A stretch of DNA of 64,000 nt from Endozoicomonas sp. 8E (GTDB lineage Bacteria > Pseudomonadota > Gammaproteobacteria > Pseudomonadales > Endozoicomonadaceae): the NCBI RefSeq assembly GCF_032883915.1, contig NZ_CP120717.1:5534501-5598500 (forward strand), given 5' to 3'. Shown piece after piece: positions 13,474-55,237 of this stretch (positions within the stretch are counted from its first letter, which is position 1; each line of letters begins with the position of its first letter). Both the position numbers and the translations under genes were made by a program. The notes beneath the pieces were generated by a model. That model was not told the DNA's origin. It did no database searches and worked only from the letters and a program-made list of their open reading frames with translations.

Positions 13474-13647
13474 CGCAAGCTCTCACTGATCTGAAGAATA
13501 TTCAAGTGTCTGAATTCAGATCCTTATGTTTAGTCGCTTTTTGGAAAAAAGACAGTTATTTTATTTTCCCATTGATGGCGATAAATCCGGTTTATCAGCC
13601 TCTGTAGCAGCCGGGGCAGACAAATCATCCAGCTGACCATGGTCTAG

Positions 13648-13806
13648 GAGCCTGACCGAGAATAGCGCCCGTCGCGAGGACGGCAGAAAATTGAGGATGA
13701 AAATTCGGTTTTGTAAGGAGAATAGCGAGCTATTTGACGAACAAAAGCGGATTTTCAGACCAATTTGCTGCCGCCGCAGTAGGGCAGTCTATTCTCGGTC
13801 AGGCTC
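13648..13806 (+). repeat. Palindromic element family A, copy 1 (159 bp, CTAG duplication)
   Basis: A 159-bp element with perfect 18-bp terminal inverted repeats, GAGCCTGACCGAGAATAG at the left and its complement at the right. It is flanked by CTAG on both sides (13644-13647 and 13807-13810). The whole element is close to one long hairpin, with inner arms such as GGCAG...CTGCC and AATAGCGAGCTATT at the tip. Its core matches the copies at 26602 and 38953, but its ends are a different subtype. The remainder of the gap from 13474 to 14290 shows no gene or other clear signal. Confidence 0.85.
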
Positions 13807-14290
13807 CTAGATGCTCGTCTCTCCCAACTTCACACTTCTCGGCAGTGGCAACATTTCTCATGATTAGAGAAGACTGCTATTGTCTCAAAGCCGTTTTATT
13901 CGCTATTATTTCCCGCTATGAAATCACTCTCATCAGCCACTCCACCGGCCTCTCAGGCGGCAAGTCCTGAAAGGCTTCAGTCGGCATCTGATATTGCCCT
14001 CTGTTGCGGCAACTTTCCGGGCTGCCTGACATTCACATGGCGACGATGCCAAGGCTGAAAGGTTGCTTTTCAGTCACCATCACTTTCGACATCCTGCTTT
14101 TTTGCAGAACAAGGCTGCCGCTGACCAGAAAGGTCAACAAGCTCTTTGTTAGAGATGCCCATAGCGATAGAAAGATATTTTGAAAAACCATCAACAATGA
14201 GACGCAGACAGTGCAAAATATTTTTCCCGATGCGCAGCCATGAGCAAAAAAAATCATCGTACACTCGTTTCAGACCAAGGAATTTTTTCC

Positions 14291-26583: not shown

Positions 26584-26601
26584 ACTCTTTAAAAAAGCTA
26601 G

Positions 26602-26760
26602 CAGCCTGTCGGACTTAAGACTGTCCTACTGCGGTTGCAATAAATTGGTCTAAAAATCCCTGTTTCTTCGTCAAATAGCTCGCTATTCTCCTCAGAAACA
26701 GAGATTTTTATCCTCAATTTCTTGCAATCCTCGCTACGGACGCTTAAGTCCGACAGGCTG
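26602..26760 (-). repeat. Palindromic element family A, copy 2 (159 bp, CTAG duplication)
   Basis: 159 bp with perfect 18-bp inverted ends CAGCCTGTCGGACTTAAG, flanked by CTAG at 26598-26601 and 26761-26764. Read on the minus strand it aligns along its length with copies 1 and 3, and its interior folds back on itself, for example TTGCAAGAAATTG against CAATTTATTGCAA. It lies between msbA and hldE. Confidence 0.87.
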
Positions 26761-26868
26761 CTAGGGTTTTACCATGATTACCCTTCAAGACGATTTCGTG
26801 GTAAACCTACCGGAAGCTCGGCCAACTCACTTGGCAGGACCCCTAAATACCGAAGCGGAAGACACTGA

Positions 26869-38773: not shown

Positions 38774-38952
38774 AATTCATACTTAAATCGAACAATCATT
38801 AGTTAACTAACCACATGTAATAATCAGGCATATTCTGTTTTGACATCATTATGGTGATTTGGTTCCATGGACTTAAGTACTCAACCATACGAAATCATAT
38901 TTTCTGACTCATTGTTCAGGCACTCGCGGCAACTGCTCCTGCGTTGCTCTAG

Positions 38953-39159
38953 CAGCCTGTCGGACTTAAGCGCCCGTAGCGAGGATTGCGAGAAATTGAG
39001 GATAAAAATTTCTGCTTCTGAGGAGAATAGCGGGGCTATTTGACGAAGAGGCAGGAATTTTTAGACCAATTTATCGCAACCGCACGACTGCACGGATGCA
39101 GGAGCTAGAGCAACGCAGGAGCAGTTGCCGCGTAGGGCAGACTTAAGTCCGACAGGCTG
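38953..39159 (+). repeat. Palindromic element family A, copy 3, inside family B
   Basis: Ends CAGCCTGTCGGACTTAAG perfectly inverted, flanked by CTAG at 38949-38952 and 39160-39163. The host family B element contains a single CTAG at this point in its intact copy, which shows a 4-bp target duplication. It is 207 bp rather than 159 because of a 47-bp insertion at 39085-39131. Confidence 0.88.
39085..39131 (+). repeat. 47-bp segment of family B embedded in a family A copy
   Basis: These 47 bases match 55138-55184 of the family B element with one visible difference. They interrupt the family A sequence at a point (CCGCA/GTAGGG) that is continuous in the copies at 13648 and 26602. A gene-conversion or template-switch event between adjacent repeats is likely. 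Confidence 0.75.
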
Positions 39160-39442
39160 CTAGCTCCTGCATCCATGCAGTCGTGGTGCGTTGCAACTCT
39201 GGTCACATAGCTTGCTATGTTCCCGCCGTTGCGCCTTGCAGAGCACCTGCCCAATAAGCCAGAAATATTCGATTCCGTATGGCTGAGTACTTAATTATGC
39301 TCGCAATAGTCTTCACATCACCGAGGCAAACCGGCTGACCAGAGTTCAGCCTCCCAAAAGCCACTTGCTTTTAGCCCCTGAGTCCGGCATGTTGTAGCGC
39401 TTTTCTTACCCTCATTAATATAAGTTGCATAAGGGGATATCT

Positions 39443-45156: not shown

Positions 45157-45321
45157 TAAGTACCTGGCCAGTTGGTTTCGCATATTCTGGCGAGTGGATT
45201 TTTTCATCCTTCAAGGCGCAACGACGGGCGCGTAGCCGTAGCTACGCAACCAGAGTTGGAACGCAGAAGGGTGGAAAAAGCCGCCGTCCAGAATATGCGA
45301 AACCAACTGGTTAGGTACTTA
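45157..45321 (+). repeat. Palindromic element family B, divergent copy (165 bp)
   Basis: Ends TAAGTACC...GGTACTTA with long arms (CCAGTTGGTTTCGCATATTC against its complement). The centre matches the family B core, CAAGGCGCAACGACGGG then ACCAGAGTTGGAACGCA around the hairpin GCGTAGC / GCTACGC. In the 55027 copy the hairpin is ACATAGC / GCTATGT, a paired change. It occupies the 310-base gap between the DoxX-like and YHS genes; no gene is seen there. Confidence 0.75.
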
Positions 45322-50743: not shown

Positions 50744-50934
50744 GGAATCCCTGAGATCGATGTTTCTCAGGGCGGCAGACAGCCGGTCGGACACAAAGTT
50801 CCAACCGCAGAATTATTCTGACTTATCTCTTGCTCAGAGACTTGTCAGTATCCGGGGAAGATATGAATTTTCCCAACCGCCAGGTGACCCGCCCGGTTAG
50901 AAAGCCCAATTGCGTCGAGCTTCCATGGTTGCTT

Positions 50935-51125
50935 TACTGAAGGCAGGTCTCCTGGCTCCGGGATCATCATGCTTTTCTCACCTTCCCGGACCTTGAATCC
51001 AGTGGTTTAGGAAGCCTGCAGGGGCTTTCTTGAGAGCGCATTACTCCGTCACAGTTGCGGGCACAGCCGGGTTTAAAACCCCGTTCCCTATCATTTGCAA
51101 TCGGGTAGTAGACCGTTTCGCAAAC
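50935..51125 (-). promoter_or_regulatory. Cobalamin riboswitch (B12 element)
   Basis: On the minus strand, GGGAACGGGGTTTTAAACCC and TGTGCCCGCAACTGTGACGG are followed by CCACTGG and the B12 box AGCCAGGAGACCTGCCT at 50941-50957. This is the canonical order of the aptamer's conserved parts. It sits about 190 bases before the btuF ATG. It would repress btuF-btuB when adenosylcobalamin is plentiful. The remainder of the 508-base gap 50744-51251 contains the presumed expression platform. Confidence 0.9.
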
Positions 51126-51251
51126 AATCCACAGCGTCAGAATATGTCAGCACTTTTTATGCGCTGGCCACTGCCACCGTGGGACCTTCGTAAAGGTCGG
51201 GCATATTACCCGAACTTTCGTTTTAATTCACCCCTCTTGCGAAAAGCGCAA

Positions 51252-55026: not shown

Positions 55027-55237
55027 TTAAGTACTCAGCCATACGGAATCGAATATTTCTGGCTTATTGGGCAGGTGCTCTGCAAGGCCCAACGACGGGA
55101 ACATAGCAAGCTATGTGACCAGAGTTGCAACGCAGCACGACTGCATGGATGCAGGAGCTAGAGCAACGCAGGAGCAGTTGCCGCGAGTGCCTGAACAATG
55201 AGTCAGAAAATATGATTTCGTATGGTTGAGTACTTAA
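55027..55237 (+). repeat. Palindromic element family B, intact copy (211 bp)
   Basis: TTAA at both ends, with imperfect arms of about 55 bases (TTAAGTACTCAGCCATACGG against TTAAGTACTCAACCATACGA read inward). The centre has hairpins ACATAGC/GCTATGT and CTGCATGGATGCAG and one CTAG that is occupied by family A in the copy at 38873. The flanks (54894-55026 and 55238-55344) show no gene except a 12-codon ORF at 55310. Confidence 0.87.

Follow-up and report, generated by a model that had tools for sequence, protein, structure and literature searches.

A 47-nt two-hairpin cassette, REP-like and mobile-looking, is shared by nested MITE-type repeats of Endozoicomonas

IS630-type insertion sequences duplicate TA within CTAG. 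These elements and their MITEs are among the described systems closest to two palindromic repeats of an Endozoicomonas genome, families A and B, which are found nested in one another and resemble them in a CTAG target with a likely TA duplication; the genome's own IS630-type elements use CTAG too. The difference lies in the absence of any autonomous element with the ends of A or B among the 13 DDE_3 matches in the genome. Both families contain the same 47-nt module, here termed M, whose closest described counterparts are of other kinds. The GTAG-type REP sequences and REPINs associated with RAYTs (REP-associated tyrosine transposases) are likewise short hairpin repeats with GTAG before a stem, as in the commonest form of M, and with tandem arrays (PMC3733652, PMC8266576). 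Further points of likeness are the REPs inside palindromes on record in the consulted parts of PMC3733652 and the lack of a target duplication at M. On the other hand, M is a 47-nt unit of two different covarying hairpins, has often lost GTAG in Endozoicomonas, is near-identical in distant groups and has no adjoining RAYT in the loci checked.

In the BOX elements of pneumococci and Streptococcus suis (boxA-boxBn-boxC) fixed ends likewise surround variable tandem modules, and one boxB module is common to two types of element in S. suis (consulted parts of PMC3049150). This is the nearest precedent that we found for a module common to two MITEs; M differs in that it also occurs outside MITEs, in group II introns, other repeats, a coding gene and several bacterial groups. 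At the RNA level, CsrB/RsmZ-type and TwoAYGGAY RNAs resemble M in having paired hairpins whose loops contain GGA (PMC4333381, in part), and M differs from them in being without an Rfam match and in being inserted as a cassette, where they are dedicated sRNA genes. Sequence strings of M had no match in open-access papers, a scope that does not extend to subscription journals or to sequences shown solely in a figure or supplement, and no open-access paper joined three or more of the terms CsrA, miniature inverted-repeat, repetitive extragenic palindromic and sponge. The finding reported here is this shared 47-nt two-hairpin cassette, mobile-looking and REP-like in kind.

Nested repeats and their target sites

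The original prediction, made for a 64-kb window (the whole stretch of DNA analysed), held that a family A repeat is inserted in a family B repeat at 38873-39294 and that an exact empty site exists at 55027-55237. The alignment it called for, against the reverse complement of 55027-55237, confirmed the nest as base-exact: the first 81 bases are the first 81 of that sequence, the final 135 match its final 135 with three mismatches, and the two partial matches overlap at CTAG(C). The B parts thus join exactly at CTAG, and the excess DNA is exactly 211 bp, i.e. 207+4 (or 209+2). The coordinates and lengths given earlier (422-bp span, 211-bp B, 207-bp A) were right (Table 1). As for the empty site, it does carry one CTAG and is base-exact, but it is a paralogous copy and not the same locus without the insert. 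The genome search that had also been called for recovered many further copies of both families. The B query gave at least 79 matches in its own 7.38-Mb genome, fragments included (40 of 160 first-look candidates were scored), and the 22-base end of A with CTAG occurs 167 times at up to three mismatches (reversed-pattern control, 0). Given this abundance of both repeats the nest is far beyond chance; it is real, and ordinary in kind. The two families are not independent, as a 47-bp cassette is common to both.

Table 1. Features of the nest and of related repeats, in window coordinates
Feature	Position	Strand	Remarks
Family B repeat split by family A	38873..39294	-	Ends NTA-AGTACTCA ... TGAGTACT-TAN; ends compared over 30 B copies
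TA duplication flanking the split B	38874-38875, 39292-39293		Read as TA
B's own M, one part	38926..38952	-	Interrupted by A at its CTAG; joined to the other part it gives a complete M
Left CTAG	38949..38952	.	TA duplication 38950-38951
Family A repeat	38953..39159	+	207 bp (209 bp with the bordering G and C, under the TA rule); terminal inverted repeats (G)CAGCCTGTCGGACTTAAG
M within family A	39085..39131	+	Between CGCA and GTAG; M-free A copies are the empty site
Right CTAG	39160..39163	.	TA duplication 39161-39162
B's own M, other part	39160..39183	-	
Family B with unbroken M and one CTAG	55027..55237	+	Paralogous empty site for A
M within the unbroken B	55138..55184	+	CTAG at 55158-55161
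A variant A2 without M	13644..13810	+	M empty site in the same window
Family A copy without M	26598..26764	-	

Insertion of A into the CTAG of the M within B is seen in four B copies of this genome (G000), namely that of the window and those at 936280-936446, 3301496-3301709 (where B is truncated) and 6327616-6328034. Three chimeras, at 2031403-2031766, 4169027-4169391 and 5431628-5431992, each run from one side of B through left A and M to the opposite side of B; they are probably deletion products formed after nesting.

B duplicates TA at its target, because 30 copies are bounded by TA at either end while the bases beyond it vary (one, in L038, has a mutated end). For A, a 4-bp duplication of CTAG had been proposed. 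CTAG does flank A on both sides in 34 of 40 copies by hand count, with six (L055, the second copy of L064, L071, the first copy of L075, L079 and L084) deviating on one or both sides; the flanks are better read, however, as a TA duplication within a CTAG target. At such a target a 4-bp CTAG and a 2-bp TA duplication give the identical sequence C-TA-[G...C]-TA-G. TA is favoured, and most likely what A duplicates, because one A copy reads TTA[GCAGCC...GGCTGC]TAG, which needs no change under a TA duplication and one under a CTAG duplication, and because the genome's IS630-type elements also lie in CTAG; L084, with CTAA on both sides and one odd base, is a clean fit to neither model. Among those IS630-type elements, the ten copies of a 251-aa type have CTAG on the left in every case and on the right in nine (one with a one-base shift), L397 being read at its left end only, while both intact copies of a 382-aa type have it on both sides. 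All 13 DDE_3 matches, each read at one end or more, end in GTACATCAC or TGTAGTGCG, unlike A or B. A 1382-bp element (G000:C1:1389626-1391007, L119) considered as the autonomous parent of A was rejected as such: it is an IS630-type element with TGTAGTGCG ends and a 382-aa open frame, inserted at the CTAG of the M that an A copy contains.

Both A and B are short, free of genes, bounded by terminal inverted repeats and present in many copies, with the flanking duplications expected of MITEs and the CTAG/TA target of the IS630 type. They may be pictured as short palindromic MITE-type repeats, B entering at TA and A at CTAG with TA likely duplicated, and both would be moved in trans by an IS630-type transposase.

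Some further arrangements were observed around these families. Copies of A1 and A2 lie end to end with one CTAG in common at own-genome loci such as L006, L056, L060, L078 and L121, and the end of another A adjoins 20 of the 74 A copies with distinct flanks. An M-free B in L144 is interrupted at TGACT by a repeat with GAGGGTGTCGCAAAAC ends, perhaps with a 5-bp duplication. Elsewhere in the window, 45157-45321 is a palindromic repeat without M and with TAAGTACC...GGTACTTA ends, possibly a third family with B-like ends, and a Cobalamin riboswitch lies at 50925-51144 on the minus strand (85.5 bits).

The cassette has exact empty sites, many hosts, arrays and covarying stems

A repeat search within the window returned a 51-bp stretch common to A and B, which corresponds to the 47-bp module M with the layout CGAC-hairpin-GGAG[G/C]TAG-A-hairpin-CCGA/C/T. 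This genome contains 142 copies, 86 forward and 56 reverse, at up to three mismatches in 38 bases (control, none). M mostly reads CTAG in the lineage of this genome and GGTAG in most others. The CTAG into which A inserted is part of B's own copy of M, which explains why two seemingly separate repeats of the window share the very spot where one hit the other: an M with CTAG would offer a target to A and to IS630-type elements, and could in this way have led to the nest. We make no claim for this CTAG as a special hotspot, the few hits per roughly 130 M copies being by our estimate about what even targeting gives; the window has 36 CTAG sites.

The copies of A with and without M show how the two are joined. 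M-free A reads GCAACCGCA-GTAGG, and one-M copies have 47 extra bases between the A and the GTAG of this junction, with no duplication; M-bearing and M-free forms of the variant A2, whose empty site is in the window, likewise differ exactly and without a target duplication. Of the 74 A copies that differ in their flanks, all from fetched own-genome loci, 20 are without M, 52 have one, one has two and one has four, i.e. the number of tandem modules varies between fixed A ends as in BOX elements; this count merges copies with equal 14-base flanks and consequently shows one case of A in M as against four by coordinates. M-free B is 163 bp including both TAs (L142, L150), and its join is not clean, with GTCA in M-free B versus a few different bases in M-bearing B, while a 173-bp form of B (L143, L145, L153) looks like a deletion across repeated CTGCGTTGC. 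Loci L278 (joined as CTTTT-GGCG) and L291 (CCT-GAGC) each present M-bearing and M-free copies of one host repeat, with exact joins and no duplication. In all, at most 155 contexts have an empty-site paralogue, some of these being false, either because a context near the end of a locus matched itself or because M adjoins another M (e.g. L281, L271 and L306).

The 214 M contexts in the fetched loci comprise 198 single copies, seven double, four triple and four fourfold arrays and one sixfold array (Shewanella, L231), and M also lies inside M-like sequence in L224, L253 and L293. The base to the right of M is G in 188 of these 214, with no longer target evident and no duplication; these are the observations that bear on an IS200/IS605-like single-strand mobility. 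In the fourfold array of L122 every copy reads TTAG in place of CTAG; because all four carry it, the array probably grew after the change from CTAG to TTAG.

The hosts of M are diverse. Clustering of 169 contexts by 12-mers (9-mers chained nearly all of them; contexts with cassette-like words within 30 bases were left out) yielded 54 clusters, 39 of them single and a few related to each other (L214 and L255; L196 and L204), with A and B falling in one cluster, probably through the chimeras. Certain hosts are group II introns: L048 matches the Rfam models group-II-D1D4-3, D1D4-1 and Intron_gpII and has M directly after the conserved CAUA, L170 covers that same place, and L171, L222 and L276 are intron loci with M too. 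A 48-nt relative of M lies in frame in the BREX gene pglX of a Salmonella plasmid (NZ_CP133280.1, L431:1501-1548), where it contributes 16 codons in a stop-free stretch. Read by eye (the aligner placed the gaps elsewhere), two other pglX genes have TTCAATGCAGA-CAACCG across the site, yet carry 30 bases nearby that the Salmonella gene lacks. Of 53 E. coli genomes matching the pglX region, two match the M-bearing form at 99% or more, both matches being chromosomal.

Both hairpins of M are supported by covariation in 44 full-length variants, drawn from 67 distinct ones and trimmed by the last base. In these 97.2% of cells pair as against 90.5% in shuffled sets, seven of the nine stem pairs are changed on both sides, and 22 compensatory cells compare with 2.4 in shuffles; controls with slid partners destroy the signal. 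Stem 1 is of the form CNNC/GNNG and stem 2 is GCAAC/GTTGC, with variants such as GTAAC/GTTAC, GCGGC/GCCGC and GCCGC/GCGGC, although some class-survey variants (e.g. GCGACGCAGGAGCCAAAGC) do not form stem 2 as drawn. Loop 1 reads A-N-GGA-Y in all 44 variants and loop 2 contains GGA in 43, a conservation that is partly due to selection since the patterns by which loci were fetched demanded GGA; one further GGA lies between the hairpins. Single copies fold only moderately better than shuffles, three on the GGA strand having z between -0.9 and -2.3 and one on the other strand -3.2. The joined flanks of M fold more strongly than DNA 40-85 nt away (mean -16.3 vs -13.2 kcal/mol, p = 0.0035, 53 contexts). 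Entry at the tips of hairpin loops was considered and set aside, the junction lying in loops in 38% of cases vs 30% (p = 0.17, the same 53 contexts).

Distribution of the cassette

A 43-base core of M at up to three mismatches is present in 20 of 37 genomes of the family, representing three of eight genera, and in 16 of those 20 genomes the best fetched locus is identical at all 43 bases. For comparison, the best listed matches to A in other genomes show a similarity of about 76-96%, in some cases across only part of A. A scan of one genome per species with an exact pattern, in which 37 of 41 positions were fixed, found at least 118 stretches. Among the matches listed were Endozoicomonas, Shewanella, Methylobacter, Methylovulum, Methylomicrobium, Methyloglobulus, a member of the Methylococcaceae, Lysobacteraceae or Lysobacterales MAGs and unplaced Gammaproteobacteria; Endozoicomonas, Shewanella, the Methylococcales and the Lysobacterales belong to several orders. 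In a sample of the class, a looser pattern recovered M from 15 genomes out of 369 (14 of 272 genera), this genome included, and a pattern restricted to the 48-nt form gave nine of the 369. M was also detected in four viral contigs and in eight plasmid records (six Pseudoalteromonas, one Moellerella and one Salmonella). Phage records gave none, nor did E. coli genomes by a near-match search that misses the diverged pglX form.

Movement and possible RNA binding

We regard as probable an account on three levels, in which A and B are MITEs, M is a mobile cassette within both, and the CTAG of M is a target for A. Each of A and B would carry M at a fixed site of its own, M being a discrete non-autonomous mobile sequence that may enter as a unit, without target duplication and in most contexts before G. 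Entry would often be into strongly folding regions, after which M could multiply in tandem. M behaves as if it were itself a very small mobile element, and the best reading of it is as a REP-like mobile hairpin cassette. Because it is a folded unit without duplication, occurs inside M-like sequence and forms tandem arrays, we propose that it may move as a folded single strand of DNA, much as REP/REPIN sequences or IS200-type ends do. Several points count against the three-level account: the searches gave no enzyme for M and no autonomous partner with the ends of A or B, Y1 genes do not go with M in number or, in the loci checked, in position, the junction is not enriched in hairpin loops, the join in B is not clean, and much of the spread of M within one genome is the copying of A and B themselves. 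In a rival view, M could be only an internal MITE module that passes between families by recombination of nested copies, as the S. suis boxB precedent (PMC3049150, in part) and the nests and A-M-B chimeras of this genome might suggest. That view appears very unlikely to us, since the contexts form 54 clusters from several bacterial groups and M is found in introns, in a coding gene and at exact joins in hosts unlike A or B. Still more improbable, indeed scarcely credible, is that the window holds just an IS630-type MITE inside another MITE and that the shared 47 bp are incidental. The exact nest, the ends of A and B and the CTAG targets of IS630 all agree with this, but the shared module is the very site that was hit and occurs far outside both families, which refutes it as a complete account.

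A more specific possibility, which we consider unlikely while according it real weight, is that a RAYT moves M and that M is a REP of the GTAG type, and as such an ordinary if undescribed REP family. Outside Endozoicomonas M most commonly has a second half made up of GTAG, one base and a 5-bp stem; the arrays are tandem and nested, REPs have been recorded inside palindromes (PMC3733652, in part), and weak Y1 hits occur in several M-bearing genomes, in frames some 160-310 aa long. The first base at the GTAG position is variable, however (G in 26, C in 14, A in two and T in two of the 44 variants), and M has a second covarying hairpin without GTAG and moves as a 47-nt unit. Nor do transposase genes accompany it: no M was found beside Y1 genes in 30 fetched loci of the family or in 30 fetched from 12 M-bearing genomes, each set being part of the Y1 matches listed, so that none of the 60 has a RAYT gene flanked by M. 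No Y1 match at E <= 0.01 was obtained in a Shewanella genome (G415) that contains an array of four M copies. The numbers of PF01797 (Y1) matches do not follow those of M either; genome G009 has 76 but, at up to three mismatches, lacks M (a more diverged copy is in L046), as against 10 in this genome with its 143 matches to M. As neither counts nor neighbourhoods support it, the link between M and tyrosine transposases was rejected.

At the RNA level M could be a module bound by CsrA/RsmA that spreads with the repeats and titrates or recruits the protein, a reading that is less likely again. It is suggested by the GGA in both hairpin loops (44 and 43 of 44) and the one between them, and by G at the N of loop 1 among the class-survey variants. 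The SELEX consensus for CsrA is RUACARGGAUGU, with GGA preferably in a hairpin loop (PMC4347634, in part), and sites are generally paired (PMC4333381, in part). The GGA of M is in the loops of conserved hairpins, but the full consensus is absent: the SELEX ligands have a fully conserved ACA and A or G before GGA (PMC4347634, in part), whereas the corresponding bases of M are GCA and, in 41 of 44 variants, T. M likewise shows no preferred orientation with respect to the genes around it, with 40:24 for upstream genes (p = 0.06) and 31:33 for downstream genes (p = 0.90) in 64 contexts; these are what is left of 125 genome-contig contexts after removal of 47 near locus ends and 14 in open frames, own-genome and class-survey sets being left out. 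Rfam models of CsrB, RsmX/Y/Z and TwoAYGGAY do not match M. Binding of CsrA by M is possible. The conjunction of both ideas, with M a 47-nt mobile sequence in its own right and at the same time a CsrA-binding RNA module, outside any known class of enzyme and spread across the Gammaproteobacteria, strikes us as decidedly unlikely, and slightly more so in view of the departure of M from the full SELEX consensus. If true, M would move among unrelated repeats, introns and even genes, and every transcript of a host would be supplied with two CsrA sites from the outset.

It has long been asked how repeats only a few tens of bases long can spread when no transposase is obvious. M, best read as a REP-like mobile hairpin cassette, offers an unusually clean case, with both occupied and empty sites in several of its host repeats, almost identical copies across groups, compensating changes in its stems and an in-frame relative in a gene; both its mobility and its possible binding of CsrA are thereby directly testable.
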